From contig JAIXXV010000018.1 in assembly GCA_027490575.1 (NCBI GenBank), positions 1-34,393 on the forward strand: 34,393 nucleotides of DNA. Direction: 5' to 3'. A model generated the notes under the pieces. The model searched no databases. It saw only the letters and a list, made by a program, of their open reading frames with translations, and was not told the origin of the DNA. This document shows, piece by piece, positions 6,663 through 34,393 of this stretch. The stretch is from a bacterium (GTDB lineage: Bacteria > Patescibacteriota > Minisyncoccia > Phycocordibacterales > CAIZLB01). How positions within the stretch are numbered: position 1 is the stretch's first letter; each line of letters begins with the position of its first letter. A program made the position numbers and the translations under genes.

Positions 6663-7820
6663 ATGTCCGAGACCTTTCTAAAGGCACAGACTGAGGCTCG
6701 TGCTCGTGCGTGGGAAGCTGCTAAGGCTCTTCTCGACAACGCTGCTGCTGAGAAGCGTGACCTGACTGCTGAAGAGCAGGTTCAGTTTGACCGCATCAAC
6801 GCAGACCTAGACGAGCGTGCTGCCGCTATTGACAACATTCGCAAGATCGAAGAGCGTGAGGCTAAGGCCGCCGAACTTTCTCGTGGTCTTGAGATTGCAA
6901 CCCCTAAGTCCGACTCTGACCTACTGCGTGCTATCGCTCGTGGTGAGGTTCGTGGTCACAACTTCGAGGCTCGCACCCTAGTTCCAAACAGCAACCTAGT
7001 CCCAACCGGTTTCTTCGACCAGGTTTGGATGCGTGCTCGTGAGGTTGGCCCAATGCTTCGTGTTGGCAACATCCTCAACACCGCATCGGGTGAGGACATT
7101 GTGTTCCCAACCCTAACCGCATACAGCTCTGCTGGTCTTGTGGCTGCTGGTGGAACCATTGCCGAGTCTGAGCCAACCTTCAGCTCTGTAACCATCGGAT
7201 CTTACAAGTATTCTTTCCTCGTGCCTGTGTCCGAGGAACTACTAGTAGATAGCGGGGTCTCGCTAGAGGCTGAATTGGCAAAGGCTGGTGGTAACTCCAT
7301 CGGTTTCGCCGTCAACACCGCTCTAACCACCGGAACTGGCTCAAGCCAGCCAAACGGTGTTGTGACCGCTGCTTCGTCTGCTGTTACTGGAACTGCTGCT
7401 GCTGGTGCTCCAACTGGTGATGACATCATCAACCTTTACTACTCGCTAGACGGTGCTGTGCGTGCAGCTACTAACTTCGCTTTCATGGCGAACGCAACCA
7501 CCATCTCCAGCATCCGTAAGCTAAAGGACACCACTGGACAATACTTGTTCCAGCCTGCTCTAGCTGCTGGCACTCCAGACACCCTATTGGGCCGCCCACT
7601 AGTTGAGAACCCAGCAATGGCTTCTGGAACTTCTGCAAAGTCCATCCTTGCTGGTGACTGGGATGCTTACCGAGTTCGTGTTGCTGGTGGCCTTCAGGTC
7701 GCTCAGTCAGCTGACTACCAGTTCAACCTTGGAGTGGTCAACTACCGCTTCCAGATTCGTGTTGACGGTGACTTGCTAGACACCACCGCAATCAAGTTCT
7801 ACAAGGGTGCAACCGCCTAG
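6663..7820 (+). CDS. Major capsid protein, HK97 fold
   Basis: A 385-residue protein with a strong ribosome site (TAAGGAGAATC) and its own promoter region. Residues 1-85 are a charged coiled-coil delta/scaffold domain (TAEEQVQFDRINADLDERAA) of the kind removed by the prohead protease. The capsid fold follows: LVPTGFFDQVWMRAREVGP, the SYKYSFLVPVSEELLVDS segment, a NPAMASG stretch and a closing FNLGVVNYRFQIRVDGDL motif. It is flanked by terminators and has the most regular, apparently highly expressed codon choice in the window. Confidence 0.96.
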   Translation: MSETFLKAQTEARARAWEAAKALLDNAAAEKRDLTAEEQVQFDRINADLDERAAAIDNIRKIEEREAKAAELSRGLEIATPKSDSDLLRAIARGEVRGHNFEARTLVPNSNLVPTGFFDQVWMRAREVGPMLRVGNILNTASGEDIVFPTLTAYSSAGLVAAGGTIAESEPTFSSVTIGSYKYSFLVPVSEELLVDSGVSLEAELAKAGGNSIGFAVNTALTTGTGSSQPNGVVTAASSAVTGTAAAGAPTGDDIINLYYSLDGAVRAATNFAFMANATTISSIRKLKDTTGQYLFQPALAAGTPDTLLGRPLVENPAMASGTSAKSILAGDWDAYRVRVAGGLQVAQSADYQFNLGVVNYRFQIRVDGDLLDTTAIKFYKGATA

Positions 7821-7869: not shown

Positions 7870-7900
7870 TGCTAAGGTGAAGAAAGAAGAAAGGCAAGAA

Positions 7901-9112
7901 ATGGGCAACCCTAAAAAGCAAGAGCAAATCAACGGCAGCGTGAGTTGGTTCAGTAACGGTATCAACCAACCGACTGGCTATGGACAGCAGTCATGGGAAG
8001 TCGTGACTCGTATGAAGCGTCACGGCATAGATGTAGCCTCAATCGCCAACTACGGGCGAGAGGGTGTCAACGGCTTTGTAGAAACACCATTTGGCAAAAT
8101 CCCTGAATACGCAAGAGGAGTAGACCTTTACAGCAATGACTCTGCTCCGGTGTCTCACGCACACCACATCAGCAAAGACATCACTAAGCCCTCGATGTTT
8201 ATGACCTTGTTCGATACTTGGGTGCTGACCAATCCTGAGTTCGACAAGATTCCTAAGATCGCAAGCTGGACACCGCTTGACCATGTATCTATGCCACCAG
8301 CCGTAAAGAAGTGGTTGGACAAGCCGAATGTGCTACCAATCGCAATGGCTCCATTTGGTGTAGAACAGATGGCAGAAGTGGGCATTGAGTCCACCTACAT
8401 CCCTCACGCCATTGACACTCACATCTTCAAGCCAACAGAGACAATCGAAGGGCAAATCACTCGCCGCTTTCTAAATGTCAAAGACGATGACTTCTTGATT
8501 GTTGTGAACGCAGCCAACAAAGCCAATAAGTCCATCCACCGGAAATCATTTTCCGAGTTGCTAATGGCCTTCAGCGTATTCCGCAAGAAAGTCCCAAATG
8601 CTTATCTCTACATCCATACCGAGCCGACAGGCATCTATGGCGGCTTTCACCTGCCACGCCTCGCTGCTGCCTGTGGTCTGCCTATGGATGCTGTGCTATT
8701 CCCTAACCCGATTGACTACCGCTTTGGCTTTGAGCGTGAGCACCTAGCTGCAATCTACTCAGCAGCAGATGTTGTCGCTCAGTTGTCTTATGGCGGTGGC
8801 TATGAGCTTCCTATCATGGAAGCCCAGGCCTGTGGTAAGCGAGTAATCTCAATCAACTGGACTGCACCAAAAGACCTAGTATCAGAGGATGGCTACCTCG
8901 TCAACGGGCAGTTGTTCTGGGATGAGGCTCAGCTTGCTTGGTTCAAGATTCCTCACATCGGCTCAATCACTCAGGCACTTGAGAACGCCTACGATGACAC
9001 CAGAGCTAACGGATCTCACAGCGAGGTAAGCCGCAAGTTTGCCAAGCAGTTTGATGCTGAGAAGGTCTGGCTTGAGAACTGGTTACCATTCCTCAAGGAA
9101 CACCTAAAGTGA
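7901..9112 (+). CDS. Glycosyltransferase, GT4-like (GT-B fold)
   Basis: The ATG at 7901 has AAGG six bases upstream; a GTG at 7877 would add eight lysine/glutamate-rich residues and is less likely. The product has 403 residues. The N-terminal half has the SWFSNGINQPTGYGQQSW opening typical of retaining GT-B enzymes. The C-terminal half has the nucleotide-sugar signature SYGGGYELPIMEAQACGKRV, in which the E-x7-E pattern binds the donor. No signal or membrane segment. It lies immediately after the capsid terminator and overlaps the next glycosyltransferase by four bases. A role in decorating virion proteins or modifying host sugars is inferred; donor and acceptor are unknown. Confidence 0.9.
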   Translation: MGNPKKQEQINGSVSWFSNGINQPTGYGQQSWEVVTRMKRHGIDVASIANYGREGVNGFVETPFGKIPEYARGVDLYSNDSAPVSHAHHISKDITKPSMFMTLFDTWVLTNPEFDKIPKIASWTPLDHVSMPPAVKKWLDKPNVLPIAMAPFGVEQMAEVGIESTYIPHAIDTHIFKPTETIEGQITRRFLNVKDDDFLIVVNAANKANKSIHRKSFSELLMAFSVFRKKVPNAYLYIHTEPTGIYGGFHLPRLAAACGLPMDAVLFPNPIDYRFGFEREHLAAIYSAADVVAQLSYGGGYELPIMEAQACGKRVISINWTAPKDLVSEDGYLVNGQLFWDEAQLAWFKIPHIGSITQALENAYDDTRANGSHSEVSRKFAKQFDAEKVWLENWLPFLKEHLK

Positions 9113-9756
9113 TACCAGTCCTAGGGTTTGCAACCCTCACTCGCTTTGATTTGGCACAGCGGTTGATTGACTCTATTGACCACCCTGTCGAGCATCTGGT
9201 TATTGTTGACAACTCAGGCAAGATGGAGTTTGAGCCAAAGGCAAATCCCTTTGTTGTGAACACTTGGATTATTAGAGTGCCTAGCGGTCTTGGTGCTAAC
9301 GGTGCTTGGAATCTCATTATCAAGTCAACGCCTCACGCACCTTATTGGGTTATCCCAAATGATGACGCTTACTTTGAGGCAGGTGCATTGGCAACCATCG
9401 AGGCAGAGGTTGACACAACCAAGTTCAACTTTTTGAACATCAACCCAAAGTGGTCATGTGTTATCCCGACTGAGGAAAGTGTTATGAAGGCAGGCCTTTG
9501 GGATGAGGTCTTTCACCCGATTTATTTTGATGACGATGAGTATGAGTGGCGTATGCAAAAACTTGGCGTGGAGTTCCACACCATCAACGCAACAGTCCAC
9601 CACAACAACAGCTCAACTTTGCAGAGTGGCTTCAGGGCTGCGAATGACCGCACCTTTGCTCGCAACTCAGCAGTATTCAGAAACAAGGTAGTAGCAGAGG
9701 ACACAGGGATCAGAGGTTGGTCTCTGCAAGTAAGAAGGGAAAACAGATGGGACTAA
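9109..9756 (+). CDS. Glycosyltransferase, GT2-like
   Basis: A 215-residue protein with a GTG start inside the stop of the GT4 gene (GTGA). The N-terminus has the GT-A layout: GFATLTRFDLAQRLIDSI, then LVIVDNSG, then PNDDAYF as the metal-binding acidic motif. IYFDDDEYEWRMQKLG (about residues 138-153) resembles the acceptor-site and base region of rhamnosyltransferase-like GT2 enzymes. It is shorter than most GT2 proteins but looks complete. Coupling to both neighbours shows a dedicated sugar operon. Substrates cannot be read from sequence. Confidence 0.82.
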   Translation: MIPVLGFATLTRFDLAQRLIDSIDHPVEHLVIVDNSGKMEFEPKANPFVVNTWIIRVPSGLGANGAWNLIIKSTPHAPYWVIPNDDAYFEAGALATIEAEVDTTKFNFLNINPKWSCVIPTEESVMKAGLWDEVFHPIYFDDDEYEWRMQKLGVEFHTINATVHHNNSSTLQSGFRAANDRTFARNSAVFRNKVVAEDTGIRGWSLQVRRENRWD

Positions 9757-10166
9757 ACATTTTTACGGCTGGCACATTTGACTTGATTCACTCAGGTCAT
9801 GTCAACTTTTTGCGAGAGTGTGCTCAGCTCGGAGATGTAACTGTTGTGCTCAACACAGATGAGTTCATTGAGCGTTACAAAGGCAAGCCACCAGTCATGT
9901 CCTATGACGAGCGGTTTCAGATTCTCAGCGAGTTCAGATGTGTCAAAAACATCTTTCCGAATTGGGCAAATGAGAACTGTGCCGCAGTAGTTGATGACCT
10001 ACGACCTGACATTGTTGCCATCGGTTCAGACTGGGCTAAGAAAGACTATTACAAGCAGATGGGCTTTGATCAGAACTGGCTTGATGAACGCAACATAAAA
10101 CTGCTCTACATTCCCTATACTCAGGGCATCAGCACCACAGACATCAAGCGTAGGTTGCAAGGGTAG
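9747..10166 (+). CDS. Cytidylyltransferase-like protein, TagD/RfaE type
   Basis: The ATG at 9747 follows GAAGGGA at six bases, giving 139 residues and a ten-base overlap with the GT2 gene. GTFDLIHSGHVNFL is the nucleotide-binding HxGH motif of the family that makes CDP-glycerol, CDP-ethanolamine or ADP-heptose. The late signature reads PYTQGISTTDIKRR, where glycerol-3-phosphate cytidylyltransferases usually have an arginine in place of the tyrosine, so the substrate may differ. It would supply an activated donor for the two glycosyltransferases ahead of it. Confidence 0.88.
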   Translation: MGLNIFTAGTFDLIHSGHVNFLRECAQLGDVTVVLNTDEFIERYKGKPPVMSYDERFQILSEFRCVKNIFPNWANENCAAVVDDLRPDIVAIGSDWAKKDYYKQMGFDQNWLDERNIKLLYIPYTQGISTTDIKRRLQG

Positions 10167-20185: not shown

Positions 20186-20419
20186 ATGACTGAAATCATC
20201 ACCAAGCTAATCGTGGACTGCACCACAGGCGAGCAGACCATTGTGCCTCTGACCGAAGAAGAGCTGGCAGAGCGTGAAGCAATGCGATTCCAGGCTGAAG
20301 CAGATCGGGCTCAGCGTGAGGCAGACGAACTAGCCAAGGCAGAAGCCAAGGCATCGGCACAGGCAAAGCTGGCAGCACTCGGTTTGACTGAGGCTGAGAT
20401 TGCAGCTCTGGGTGCATAG
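20186..20419 (+). CDS. Small helical tail-region protein
   Basis: A 77-residue protein with AGAAAGAAAAC upstream. It starts with a short strand pair (KLIVDCTTGEQTIVPLTEEE), then a long Ala/Glu/Lys helix (AEREAMRFQAEADRAQREAD), and ends KLAALGLTEAEIAALGA. Proteins with this TGEQ...LT.EE plus LGLT.EE pattern follow fibre genes in many phages and may help fibre assembly. Coupled to the next gene (TAGTG). Function inferred. Confidence 0.6.
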   Translation: MTEIITKLIVDCTTGEQTIVPLTEEELAEREAMRFQAEADRAQREADELAKAEAKASAQAKLAALGLTEAEIAALGA

Positions 20420-20769
20420 TGGCACACTACGCTTTCCTAGACGATAACAGCATCGTCACCGAGGTCATCACCGGTATTGACGAGACCGAGCTAATTGAGG
20501 GTAAAGACCCTGAGACTTGGTATGGCGAGTTCAGAGGGCAGACCTGCAAGCGAACCAGCTATTCTGGCAGCTACCGCAAGAACTACGCAGGTGTGGGTTA
20601 CAGGTATGACGAAGAACTAGATGCCTTCATCGCACCTCAGCCGTTTGCCTCGTGGGTTCTGGACAAGGACTGCAAGTGGCAAGCTCCGGTTCCATACCCT
20701 ACCGACAATTTGATTTACAAGTGGGATGAGTCAGCCGGAGACTGGACACCAGCGGAGTTTGGAAACTAA
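20419..20769 (+). CDS. Aquatic-phage conserved structural-region protein
   Basis: A 116-residue protein with GTG start. [45 protein letters not shown], and [21 protein letters not shown] match a small protein I know well from cyanophages and pelagiphages. No biochemical function is established for it there; it is usually found near fibres. Its presence in a phage with WhiB genes points to exchange between phages of different host phyla sharing open water, or to deep shared ancestry. Confidence 0.72.
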
Positions 20770-21074
20770 TGAGTTTAGACATTTGGCTACTAGAGCAGGA
20801 AGAGGCAGCGCCAGGGCCGACTCCTACGCCCACGCCTACGCCTACACCTACCCCAACGCCCACTCCGACTCCAACTCCGACTCCAACTCCCACGCCTACT
20901 CCAACACCGACCCCGACTCCTACGCCCACGCCTACGCCTGAGCCTCTACGCCGATGCACCGCGTTGGATGTTAGCTTTGGCTGTTTCTCAACTTCATGTT
21001 GTGTTGGAAGCGGCTGTTCTAGCGGTGCAACTTGTCCAACTGCAAACTGCTCAACCTCTGGTTGGTGCACCTAA
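20769..21074 (+). CDS. Threonine-proline repeat protein with cysteine-rich tip
   Basis: A 101-residue protein: a short head (residues 1-17), an uninterrupted (TP)20 stalk (18-57), and a 44-residue tip with eight cysteines (including [10 protein letters not shown] and GATCPTANC) plus many Gly/Ser/Thr. No signal peptide or membrane segment. A TP stalk should be an extended, stiff rod, and threonine and proline (if hydroxylated) are typical sugar acceptors. The tip could be a small disulfide or metal-bound knob. It sits after the fibres and 0.65 kb before a GT60-like glycosyltransferase, so a glycosylated virion appendage is a reasonable inference. Confidence 0.8.
20820..20939 (+). repeat. Six-base codon-pair repeat, 20 units
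   Basis: Twenty units of ACN-CCN code for the TP stalk. The third codon positions vary among all four bases for both threonine and proline, so the protein repeat is kept while the DNA repeat has drifted. Some longer identical blocks remain near both ends (for example the ACGCCCACGCCTACGCCT block at 20826 and 20922), which would allow unit number to change by recombination. Confidence 0.92.
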
Positions 21075-21093
21075 AAAGGAGTAGGCTACTCTC

Positions 21094-21516
21094 ATGCCAC
21101 TAACTGACATTGACATTGAGTTTGTTTACAACGGCGAGCCAGGCACAGCCTTGGTTTGGGTTATTGACCAAGAGTGTCTATACGATCTGCCACTATCTAT
21201 GGAACACGCTCAGGCTTTCCTAGATGCTGACGAGGTTGTTGACATCTCTGCTGACTACCCTGAACACGATGGCATCACCGTTCGCTTGCTAAAAGCCGGC
21301 GAGACTTTGCTGGAGCTATCTACCACCGAGTATTTTGCCGCCATTCTTTTGAGCGACCATCAAGTTGTCAAGCTGGCAGACTACCCTTACGGTAGGTATG
21401 TGGAGTCACCTTACGCCACCTTTGATGGCGAGAAGTTTCACATCACAAACAGAGATGTGTCAGGGCTGTGGCCTTGGCTAAAAGGGGAAAATAATGTCAG
21501 CGTGGCAGAAGTATAA
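21094..21516 (+). CDS. Protein of unknown function beside the TP-repeat gene
   Basis: A 140-residue acidic protein: VYNGEPGTALVWVIDQECLYDLPLSMEHAQAFLDADEVVDIS first, then mainly strands (DGITVRLLKAGETLLEL, EYFAAILLSDHQVVKLADYP) and FDGEKFHITNRD near the end. AAGGAG lies 12 bases before the ATG, a rather long spacing. No catalytic motif is evident; in particular no clear HxD...H set of a prolyl hydroxylase, which was looked for because of the adjacent TP protein. Overlaps the next gene by 23 bases. Confidence 0.6.
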   Translation: MPLTDIDIEFVYNGEPGTALVWVIDQECLYDLPLSMEHAQAFLDADEVVDISADYPEHDGITVRLLKAGETLLELSTTEYFAAILLSDHQVVKLADYPYGRYVESPYATFDGEKFHITNRDVSGLWPWLKGENNVSVAEV

Positions 21517-21718
21517 AGACAAAAACGGGTCAACACCTCTTGACCTACTCAACCCAAAGTCAGAGCGAGCAACTGACGAACTAGCCGCAGAGCGTCTAGA
21601 GGTTTGCAAGGCTTGTCCTGATGTCATCCCTGTTGTCAACCAATGCAAGCGATGTGGTTGCTTCATGGATCTCAAGACCAAGCTTAAGATTTCCAAGTGT
21701 CCTATCGGCAAATGGTAA
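21494..21718 (+). CDS. Small zinc-binding-type protein
   Basis: A 74-residue protein. Helical first half, then cysteine pairs CKAC, CKRCGCF and a final KCPIGKW. The ERLEVCKAC...CKRCGCFM.LKTKL...CPIGKW pattern is well known from cyanophage and other aquatic phage genomes and probably holds a zinc ion. Function unknown. ATG overlaps the upstream gene, and its stop overlaps the glycosyltransferase ATG at 21712, so it is tied to that enzyme. Confidence 0.75.
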   Translation: MSAWQKYKDKNGSTPLDLLNPKSERATDELAAERLEVCKACPDVIPVVNQCKRCGCFMDLKTKLKISKCPIGKW

Positions 21719-22602
21719 ACCGCATCTTCATTAGCATTGCCTCTTATAGAGACCCTGACCTTATCAACACAGTCAAGAGTGCTCATGAGAACGCTGCCTA
21801 TCCCAACAACCTAATCTTCTCGGTGTTCTCTCAAGCTGAGGAATCAGAGCATCCTGACTTGAGCTTTGTGCCTAACCTGAGATACGAGAAGGCACATTGG
21901 TCAGAGAGCCTTGGGGCTTGCTGGGCTAGAGAGCGAGCAAACCGCAATCTAGAGGGCGATTACTTCTTACAGATTGACTCTCACTCACGCTTCTTGCCTG
22001 GCTGGGACAAGTTGCTTGTGCTGGCTTACAAGCGAGCACAGACATTCTGGGGCAACCGCATCTTCTTCACGAACTACCCTGACCCTTTTGAGCTTGACCA
22101 CTCCGGCAATCCTGAGTTTTTTGCTCAGGCTGCTTTCTTCAAACTCAATGCCTATTGGCATGATGCCTCAAACATGGTGCAAGGTGAGTGGGCAGATGTG
22201 ATTGACACCGCCAACGGTGATGAGCAATACTTCATGTCTGCCAATTCCATGTTTGCAGAGGTAAAACTCATGCAAGAGATTCCCTATGATCCTGAGCTTT
22301 ACTTCACAGGGGAAGAGCCATCGCTGGCACTTAGGGCATACACCAGAGGCATCAGACTTATCAGCCCGACCATCAAGTTCATGTTTACCAACTACAACCG
22401 ACCTAACTCTAAGCGTAGGTTACATTGGGAAGATCACCCACAATGGCATGACTTGAACCGCAAGTCTTACGAGCGGCTAAAGCTAATCATGTCAGGCGAT
22501 ACCTCACTTGGTAAATACGGCATTGGCTCTAAGTATCTGTTTCAGCAATACCAAAAGGTAACGGGCATCAACCTTGGTGATAAGGTCGCTCAAATACAGT
22601 AG
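21712..22602 (+). CDS. GT60-like glycosyltransferase (GlcNAc transferase family)
   Basis: With ATG at 21712 (seven-base overlap with the zinc protein) the product has 296 residues and begins NRIFISIASYRDPDLINTV, the opening of the Skp1-type polypeptide GlcNAc-transferase family. GACWARERANRNLEGDYFLQIDSHSRFLPGWD (in outline) has the family DSH metal motif at 89-91 and the following FxPxWD. In eukaryotes GT60 enzymes add GlcNAc to hydroxyproline or threonine of proteins. Homologues with unknown acceptors are common in aquatic phages. The TP-repeat protein 640 bases upstream is an attractive acceptor. A GTG at 21697 is an alternative start. Confidence 0.85.
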   Translation: MVNRIFISIASYRDPDLINTVKSAHENAAYPNNLIFSVFSQAEESEHPDLSFVPNLRYEKAHWSESLGACWARERANRNLEGDYFLQIDSHSRFLPGWDKLLVLAYKRAQTFWGNRIFFTNYPDPFELDHSGNPEFFAQAAFFKLNAYWHDASNMVQGEWADVIDTANGDEQYFMSANSMFAEVKLMQEIPYDPELYFTGEEPSLALRAYTRGIRLISPTIKFMFTNYNRPNSKRRLHWEDHPQWHDLNRKSYERLKLIMSGDTSLGKYGIGSKYLFQQYQKVTGINLGDKVAQIQ

Positions 22603-23652: not shown

Positions 23653-23687
23653 CCCCAGTAGAGAAAGTCTGCTGGGGTTATCTCTTT
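23653..23687. terminator. Bidirectional terminator between lysis genes and whiB
   Basis: CCCCAG-T-AGA (23653-23662) pairs with TCT-G-CTGGGG (23668-23677), ten pairs including a T-G wobble, around the loop GAAAG. On the plus strand it runs into TTATCTCTTTT. It sits at the meeting point of the rightward lysis genes and the leftward whiB genes and overlaps the start of the whiB stop region, so it can serve both. Confidence 0.75.
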
Positions 23688-24007
23688 TCCTTGAGCCTGA
23701 AATTCTTTACGCGGTCTGCTGATCTAGCCAAAGCCGTTTCAACAGATGTCTTGCCTTTGCGGATCTCATCCCTTTGGTTAGGTGTCAGACCGCCCCAGAT
23801 GCCGTAAGCCTCATCTGCCACCAGAGCATACTTAGCACACAGTAACTGGACAGGACATTCGCTACAAATCTTCTTGGCTTGGCGTAACTCGTAGGATTCG
23901 CCACCTGCCTCTGGAAACCAAAGCTCTCCGTCAATCTCTTGACAGACCGGTGCTCCATGCTTTCTAATGCCATCAGCCAGGGCTGTAAATGCTTGCTCAA
24001 CTTTCAT
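23678..24007 (-). CDS. WhiB-family iron-sulfur transcription regulator, with basic tail
   Basis: A 109-residue protein. Four cysteines, C22, C48, C51 and C57 (CSECPVQLLC), bind the 4Fe-4S cluster, and GIWGG (69-73) forms the turn that contacts the main sigma factor in WhiB proteins. The C-terminus (RDEIRKGKTS, RVKNFRLKEKR) is basic and could bind DNA. WhiB proteins occur only in Actinobacteria and their phages; phage forms can repress host whiB genes or redirect transcription. It has its own consensus promoter (24015-24044) and a leaderless start. It could control the switch between the lysis/late genes and the early operon. Confidence 0.95.
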   Translation of the reverse strand: MKVEQAFTALADGIRKHGAPVCQEIDGELWFPEAGGESYELRQAKKICSECPVQLLCAKYALVADEAYGIWGGLTPNQRDEIRKGKTSVETALARSADRVKNFRLKEKR

Positions 24008-24014
24008 AAAGCAA

Positions 24015-24044
24015 ACGATAATGCTCGTTTATTGCAACTGTCAA
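24015..24044 (-). promoter_or_regulatory. Strong promoter of the distal whiB gene
   Basis: Read on the minus strand, TTGACA (24044-24039), an 18-base spacer and TATCGT (24020-24015) precede the ATG by seven bases. The -35 is a perfect consensus hexamer and overlaps the stop codon of the upstream whiB gene. With so short a distance to the ATG and no ribosome site, the mRNA should be leaderless. The best sigma-70-type promoter seen in the window. Confidence 0.75.
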
Positions 24045-24313
24045 ATCCGCTCTGACGGCAGCGACCCACCCCAAATGCCATGCTTCTGATTCGACTCTAA
24101 GGCGTAGTCAAAACACGCATCTTTTACGGGGCAAGCTCTGCATCCCTTGATTGCCTCTGTGGTTGCAAGCTCACGCGTCTTGGGATCTTCGATGTCCTCT
24201 GGAAACCAATACTCAGGCTTCCACTCGCAAGGCACTTTATTGCCATTGCGTTGAATAGCAGCTAGGAGTGCGAGGTAATCGCTACTCAATACGCCAAAAT
24301 GTCGGAGGGTCAT
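24041..24313 (-). CDS. WhiB-family iron-sulfur regulator, short form
   Basis: A 90-residue protein with C29, C58, C61 and C67 (CRACPVKDAC) and GIWGG at 79-83. It ends seven residues after GIWGG, so it lacks the basic DNA-contact tail of its neighbour. It also has an extra N-terminal helix (SSDYLALLAAIQR). Such a form might bind sigma factor without touching DNA, or act against the longer WhiB. It is divergent from the early operon with only 32 bases between start codons, so promoters of both directions must overlap here. Confidence 0.93.
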   Translation of the reverse strand: MTLRHFGVLSSDYLALLAAIQRNGNKVPCEWKPEYWFPEDIEDPKTRELATTEAIKGCRACPVKDACFDYALESNQKHGIWGGSLPSERI

Positions 24314-33825: not shown

Positions 33826-34157
33826 GATTCAACAGACCTTGCCTCAAGTGCAACACCCTACACAGGGATAAGGGAGACTACTGTGCAAGCTGTCGAAGTG
33901 AATACGAGCGCAAGCGTGAGGCAGACCCAACCCGCATGGCCCGCAAGCGAATGATGTATGGCGGTGACTACCCTGCCCGCCGAGCCAGCATGGTAACAGA
34001 GACAATACAGAACAATCTTCCTTGTCACATTTGCAAAAAGAATTTCACCTCGCTGTCTGAGATCACAGCAGACCACCTGATACCAGGAAATCCAAACTCT
34101 CCACTCGCACCAGCACACAAGGGCTGCAACTCAAGCAGGGGCAATAAGCCGCTGTAA
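33822..34157 (+). CDS. HNH endonuclease, complete copy
   Basis: A 111-residue protein. C7/C10 and C21/C24 form an N-terminal zinc knuckle; a basic helix follows (YERKREADPTRMARKRM). The HNH core is CHICKKNF, SEITADHLIPGNPNSP and a final HKGCNSSRG. Zinc-bound HNH proteins next to terS assist terminase cutting in several phages, which suits its place at the end of the circular map just before terS. The truncated copy at 2-307 is its diverged twin. ATGA overlap with the upstream gene. Confidence 0.9.
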   Translation: MRFNRPCLKCNTLHRDKGDYCASCRSEYERKREADPTRMARKRMMYGGDYPARRASMVTETIQNNLPCHICKKNFTSLSEITADHLIPGNPNSPLAPAHKGCNSSRGNKPL

Positions 34158-34204
34158 TTTACAAACACCCATGCCCCTGAGAGGGCATACACGCCCCTTA
34201 CAGG

Positions 34205-34219
34205 CTGTAAACGCTTGCA
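34205..34219. promoter_or_regulatory. Catabolite-operator-like site, distal (right copy)
   Basis: Same 15 bases as 355-369, unchanged despite substitutions on both sides, including one directly next to it (C to G at the third base upstream). Supports selection on the site. Confidence 0.45.
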
Positions 34220-34263
34220 GTCAAGCAATCACCCATACCGTTATCCAATCGTGACACCACGCT

Positions 34264-34288
34264 ACCCCCCGCCACTACATCTGGGGGT
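34264..34288. other. GC-rich hairpin (right copy)
   Basis: The C-run and G-run stem of 414-438 is kept while the loop differs at several positions (CCACTACATC in place of CCCCTAGCTA) and the inner C-G pair becomes G opposite T. Stem kept and loop free to vary is the pattern expected of a functional secondary structure. Confidence 0.45.
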
Positions 34289-34365
34289 GGGTGCTTTCTT
34301 CTAGCACTACATAGCCGTAAGACCCCGACCACACTTTTGCACACCTGTTGTAGGTTGATTCGTTT

Positions 34366-34391
34366 TTGTAAACGCTTACAGTTGCTAGGGT
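34366..34391 (+). promoter_or_regulatory. Proximal cre-like site and terS -10 element (right copy)
   Basis: TTGTAAACGCTTACA (34366-34380) and TAGGGT (34386-34391) are identical to 516-541. On a circular map this is the same promoter as the one in front of terS. Confidence 0.5.
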
Positions 34392-34393
34392 TA

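Follow-up and report, generated by a model that had tools for sequence, protein, structure and literature searches.

The window analyzed here (the whole 34,393-nt stretch, contig JAIXXV010000018.1) probably carries a phage-encoded system for the mucin-type O-glycosylation of a virion tail component, of which we infer the activity, the sugar and the acceptor: a GT60-family glycosyltransferase is encoded close to a stalk protein made up of a threonine-proline (TP) rod and a cysteine-rich tip. Phages probably build mucin-like, sugar-coated tail parts with dedicated enzymes of their own, because the pairing of stalk and enzyme recurs in many unrelated phages and bacteria (related loci are labeled L009, L187 and so on). 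An earlier sequence-only reading of this DNA had proposed a dedicated enzyme-substrate pair forming a virion spike; co-occurrence, fold and tail fusions support this proposal, but only part of the enzyme family is paired in this way.

The window is a tailed-phage contig with genes for terminase, portal, major capsid protein, head-tail connector and M23 peptidase, and the source phage is a freshwater one. A compact same-strand block (Table 1) separates the tail-fibre region from the peptidase. The phrog_7759 family, represented upstream of the stalk gene, is very common among freshwater viral contigs, and when it was used as a control anchor, stalks were rarely found nearby at other loci. The enzyme gene starts at 21712 or 21715, and the ATG at 21712 overlaps the TAA of the preceding gene. 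No nucleotide-level relatives were found among named phages, and the only protein relatives among them came from the large phages XacN1, CM1 and RAS14; no stalk was evident in the annotated neighbourhood of XacN1 and RAS14.

Table 1. Features of the same-strand block of the window.
Feature	Coordinates	Strand	Remarks
Gene	20186..20419	+	First of the same-strand block
phrog_7759 gene, function unassigned	20419..20769	+	Upstream of the stalk gene; stop overlaps the stalk start (TAATG)
Stalk protein, 101 aa: 17-aa N-terminus, (TP)20 rod (codons 20820-20939), C-terminal 8-Cys tip	20769..21074	+	
140-aa protein, no family assigned	21094..21516	+	Homologues accompany the Cys-tipped stalk in relatives
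DUF6171 / phrog_13558, small CxxC...CxxC protein	21494..21718	+	Family profile matches
GT60-family glycosyltransferase (PF11397), GT-A fold, D88-S89-H90	21712..22602	+	Pfam, phrog, predicted structure

The rod consists of 20 uninterrupted TP units (residues 18–57), and all eight cysteines of the protein sit in the 44-residue tip that follows it, in line with the sequence-only reading, with two genes between the stalk and the enzyme. The TP pattern occurs at a single site in the entire 772 kb assembly. The sister locus L009 (92% identical) has the same gene order and a (TP)21 rod, so the arrangement of stalk and enzyme is not due to chance. Over 40 codons, the rods of the window and of L009 differ at 23 third positions and at no first or second position; the two enzyme genes differ at 24, 8 and 110 sites at codon positions 1, 2 and 3, respectively, over 296 codons. 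Since all the changes in the rod are at third positions, the TP repeat is conserved as protein, judging from this codon comparison, which agrees with the protein-level selection claimed earlier; with 23 synonymous and 0 non-synonymous changes, a rod arising by chance is ruled out. An antisense ORF rich in Val and Gly (123 aa, 20699-21070) overlaps the stalk gene, and an antisense artefact was likewise rejected, stalk genes being found only on the GT60 strand and the tip homology being in the sense frame.

The tip of the window protein is homologous to the tips in L009, L187, L189, L188 and L041, where it is borne by stalks of differing composition, (TP)n, poly-Thr, (VTPP)n or (ATPPP)n. The Thr/Pro chemistry is thus kept and the stalk sequence not. 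In L107, L140 and L163, the stalk-containing protein itself matches minor-tail-type families, and this fusion provides the best, though indirect, evidence for the location of the stalk in the virion.

By sequence and predicted fold, the enzyme is an ordinary GT60 member. It matches PF11397 'Glycosyltransferase (GlcNAc)' with 139.1 bits (cut-off 21, E 3e-40; relatives score 122–241 bits) and also phrog_24687 'glycosyltransferase'. The assignment to the Skp1-type family had been based on the SIASYRDP and DSH motifs, which are present (residues 7–14 and 88–90) and near-invariant among 23 relatives; D88-S89-H90, a DxH/DxD-type metal motif, is invariant in the 23 aligned sequences. An AlphaFold2 model obtained with the 23 relatives had a pLDDT of 95 and a pTM of 0.93. 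The best 50 matches in a Foldseek search of the PDB were all polypeptide GalNAc-transferases, and VIA-align listed mucin-type enzymes of this kind as its first 29 entries, with Z falling from 22.9 to 20.1, and other glycosyltransferases after these, with Z of 19 and below; the top match (Z 22.9) aligned 265 residues at 3.3 A rmsd and about 14% identity. The modeled fold thus groups with polypeptide O-glycosyltransferases. Sequence searches yielded no solved structure for the enzyme, and no GT60 structure was found. The enzyme looks soluble, with no evident membrane-anchoring segment. The known members of the family had been implied to be eukaryotic, but GT60 is not confined to eukaryotes: bacterial and archaeal genomes yielded 294 matching stretches. 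In Trypanosoma cruzi, GT60 enzymes add alpha-GlcNAc to threonines of mucins (PMC9472816), and in the Skp1 pathway, a GT60 enzyme adds alpha-GlcNAc to a hydroxyproline of Skp1 (PMC6939170).

The two intervening genes, which the sequence-only reading suggested might take part, are real and recur in relatives. The 140-aa gene is homologous to genes in six other loci (L009, L187, L189, L201, L041 and L188); its protein was modeled with a pLDDT of 82, and a fold search gave no significant PDB match. The DUF6171 protein, which is probably zinc-binding, is encoded immediately ahead of GT60 or the oxygenase in L041, L048, L106, L107, L117, L140, L153, L163 and L187. However, 26 DUF6171 matches fall in loci without GT60 among those collected, so this widespread family is ruled out as a dedicated partner of the system.

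For the survey of co-occurrence, viral contigs were scanned for GT60, the enzymes were dereplicated at 70% identity, and a stalk was required to contain 8 or more Thr and 20 or more Thr+Pro+Ser within 30 residues. In the viral loci, 12/105 genes at positions −1 to −3 of GT60 encoded a stalk, versus 6/753 elsewhere (OR 16, p=6e-8). Among loci found by GT60 similarity, 8/33 had a stalk within 1.5 kb upstream, with 0 downstream and 0 antisense, whereas tail-gene control loci without GT60 yielded 0/78 (p=3e-5 vs 8/33). GT2 loci of the same records gave 1/30 (p=0.019), or 1/27 when the three GT60 cross-hits L228-L230 were left out (p=0.028), and the contrast between GT60 and GT2 is therefore only moderately significant. 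The phage GT4 control had a stalk in 0/53 loci, a set reduced to only five loci by dereplication. A second scan, seeded with enzymes of large phages, recovered stalks in 37/79 loci (dereplicated at 80%: 19/49, with 17 stalks directly adjacent), a rate that is not unbiased because the seeds were mostly stalk-adjacent. The sampling is biased in that the scans order matches by similarity to a stalk-adjacent enzyme and that the alignment (A6) consists mostly of stalk-adjacent rows. An independent bacterial set gave 10/204 versus 1/1062 (p=9e-8), mostly in the abutting gene, as in Pseudoduganella, an acidobacterium (L251), a Vicinamibacterales MAG (L271), Sphingomonas and Thauera. The survey named beforehand in the sequence-only reading thus had the outcome predicted there, with Thr/Pro-rich repeat proteins beside the enzyme more often than by chance and enriched just upstream of it in phages and, independently, in bacteria. 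Most of the upstream low-complexity tracts (27/31) were Thr-rich. In the bacterial loci L259, L264, L274, L286, L290 and L300, the proteins with Thr/Pro tracts encoded upstream of GT60 share an IDKLQW/FDKLEW/IDKVEW ending, as if this C-terminal motif were a signal marking a GT60 client.

In the GT60 tree, the stalk label requires nine changes, at least six of which are forced by well-supported branches, and it is spread over several clades. About two thirds of the dereplicated viral GT60 loci had no stalk nearby, and by the strict criterion of three genes, most of the 41 viral GT60 representatives lacked one. A clade from the early region, located beside small WhiB-like genes (L133, L124, L148, L119, L173, L149, L127, L114 and L138), and another small clade were stalk-free. 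The pairing therefore holds for part of the GT60 family only. Tandem pairs of GT60-like genes were also observed in large phages (L172, L174 and L178).

The cassettes of the relatives vary in content. The window cassette has a more distant copy in L187. Both L048 and L189 encode a poly-Thr stalk ending in a Cys tip, DUF6171 and GT60; in L189, the tip is a homologous one, and the 140-aa homologue (before DUF6171) and a radical SAM protein (before GT60) are present as well. The radical SAM/SPASM protein of L189 (1431-2432), located between DUF6171 and GT60, is possibly involved in further modification of the stalk. In L041, an fn3-like domain and a Pro10-(ATPPP)n stalk with a Cys tip are followed by the 140-aa homologue, DUF6171, GT60 and finally a 2OG-Fe(II) oxygenase. 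In L106, a PASTA-(TP)n protein is followed by DUF6171, an oxygenase and GT60, the start of GT60 overlapping the stop of the oxygenase gene, and the cassettes of L107, L117 and L140 resemble this one. In L188 (7038-9191), a (VTPP)n stalk with a Cys tip, the 140-aa homologue and DUF6171 are retained, and GT60 is replaced by GT61 (PF04577). PF13640 oxygenase genes were found in the cassettes of L105, L106, L107, L117, L140 and L041, and their alignment retains the His-x-Asp...His pattern. A profile built from these oxygenases gave no match in the window, so no hydroxylase of the Skp1 type was detected there. The features kept across these cassettes are the Thr/Pro chemistry, the terminal Cys tip and a downstream polypeptide-type glycosyltransferase, with turnover of the stalk sequence.

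The enzyme could be an O-glycosyltransferase of tail proteins with its main acceptor in the Cys tip, the 140-aa protein, DUF6171 or the glycine-rich tail fibres encoded upstream, the TP rod being a spacer. All these genes share an operon-like packing, the 140-aa gene and DUF6171 lie between the stalk and GT60 in several relatives, and the direct upstream neighbour in L091 is a Gly-Thr-rich repeat protein, the TP rod lying two genes downstream. Nevertheless, we consider such an acceptor unlikely, as large phages and bacteria without these neighbours have the T/P-stalk gene itself directly next to GT60, and the tip and the small proteins vary or are missing while the T/P-rich composition stays. 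Many phage glycosyltransferases modify host surface glycans, with superinfection exclusion or serotype conversion as the outcome, and an enzyme of this kind might lie near tail genes because genes of this sort insert at that site. The stalk-free early-region clade beside the WhiB genes indicates that some GT60s have another role. For the window enzyme a host-glycan role is very unlikely, however, given a family and fold of protein-modifying enzymes, the apparent lack of a membrane-anchoring segment, and the strong directional link to stalk genes in both phages and bacteria.

Least probable in our estimation is hydroxyproline as the real acceptor, formed as in the Skp1 pathway by a prolyl hydroxylase of the host or the phage. 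The PF13640 oxygenase gene overlaps or adjoins GT60 in L105 and L106, and the oxygenase, with its His-x-Asp...His pattern kept, is present in the cassettes of L107, L117, L140 and L041, in which the visible stalks are Pro-rich (small numbers); in L048 and L189, with poly-Thr stalks, and in L153 and L163, with T-rich ones, no oxygenase was seen. However, the window, L009 and L187 have TP rods with no oxygenase gene nearby, and the poly-Thr stalks beside GT60 hold little proline, so threonine must serve in these cases if the stalk is the acceptor. Threonine would be the likeliest acceptor in the window, since a hydroxylase match is lacking there and poly-Thr stalks are paired with the same enzyme family.

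For O-glycosylation of the stalk, we propose that the stalk gene would give rise to a small tail-attached protein in which an extended Thr-Pro rod links a short N-terminal anchor to a Cys-rich tip. The soluble GT60 enzyme would act on the unfolded rod within the host cytoplasm, either ahead of tail assembly or in its course, and place a sugar on many rod threonines, most likely alpha-GlcNAc from UDP-GlcNAc, by analogy with the family. In the relatives with an oxygenase, hydroxyproline would possibly be an added or preferred acceptor. The product would be a stiff, protease-resistant, sugar-coated spike or fringe, and the coat might provide stiffness, protection from proteases, shielding or receptor contact. 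The DUF6171 and 140-aa proteins may serve as an adaptor, a chaperone or an attachment factor. Since T/P-rich linkers occur commonly in tail proteins, some of the proximity could be opportunistic. Whether phages and some bacteria own a mucin-type O-glycosylation in which an interchangeable Thr/Pro stalk, DUF6171, an optional prolyl hydroxylase and GT60 or GT61 yield sugar-coated tail spikes is, in our judgment, an evenly balanced question.

The closest known systems share single features with the one proposed here. The TcOGNT enzymes of T. cruzi also belong to GT60, with threonine as the acceptor in mucin-like glycoproteins (PMC9472816) comparable to the TP and poly-Thr stalks. However, they are eukaryotic Golgi enzymes with no substrate gene in the same operon, whereas the phage enzyme is soluble-looking and encoded beside a putative virion protein. 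In the PhyA/Gnt1 pathway of Dictyostelium and Toxoplasma, a cytosolic prolyl hydroxylase acts together with a GT60 alpha-GlcNAc-transferase (PMC6939170), and L105, L106, L107, L117, L140 and L041, in which a 2OG-Fe(II) oxygenase is paired with GT60, resemble this pathway. However, Skp1 has one modified proline and the stalks tens of repeats, and there is no oxygenase gene near the cassette of the window. The polypeptide GalNAc-transferases (CAZy GT27) have the fold closest to that of the phage enzyme, which is only about 14% identical to them, lacks a lectin domain and belongs to PF11397. GT27 enzymes glycosylate Thr/Ser of the Pro-rich repeats of mucins. Fap1-type serine-rich repeat glycoproteins have a low-complexity Ser/Thr adhesin stalk, with dedicated glycosyltransferases encoded alongside. 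They thus resemble the proposed system in combining a stalk with its own glycosyltransferases, but they are surface adhesins of Gram-positive bacteria, with accessory export and other GT families. A mucin-type substrate with a dedicated transferase would therefore be of a kind already known, by analogy with trypanosome mucins and serine-rich repeat adhesins. In the open-access literature searched, which included few subscription journals, we found no paper on GT60 in phages and no account of such a cassette; within this scope, the phage and bacterial GT60 substrate-enzyme cassette, with its optional hydroxylase and GT61 replacement, appears to be new.

To our knowledge, glycosylation of phage virion proteins is known in few cases, with the substrates mostly unidentified. 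As the enzyme and its likely substrate are encoded together here, a single co-expression experiment could test the pairing. If the proposal is correct, phages use self-contained enzymes to make tail spikes that are mucin-like and chemically protected, and the pair would be a compact tool for producing glycosylated TP or poly-Thr polymers in bacteria. The modular cassettes would then be prokaryotic counterparts of the trypanosome mucin and Skp1 hydroxyproline pathways, and the prokaryotic pairs of GT60 and hydroxylase could inform the origin of both.

Other features of the window concern its completeness and host. Positions 1-543 and 33851-34393 overlap in the same orientation (543 bp, 87.5% identity), which suggests either that a near-complete genome was pieced together from two variants or that an HNH-like gene is duplicated at the ends. 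The 772 kb assembly has no WhiB genes other than two in the window (23678-24007 and 24041-24313, both on the minus strand). This family is actinobacterial, and the sole control genome that matched in the WhiB search was Corynebacterium. Judged by this search alone, an actinobacterium is the probable host of the phage, and the contig was probably mis-binned into the small-genome bacterium. A second sugar-related cassette (7877-10166), flanked by the genes for the major capsid protein (6663-7820) and the head-tail connector (10176), encodes a GT4-type glycosyltransferase, a 215-aa orphan and a cytidylyltransferase-like protein, with a possible role in capsid glycosylation; relatives of this GT4 enzyme were found in 61 viral contigs.
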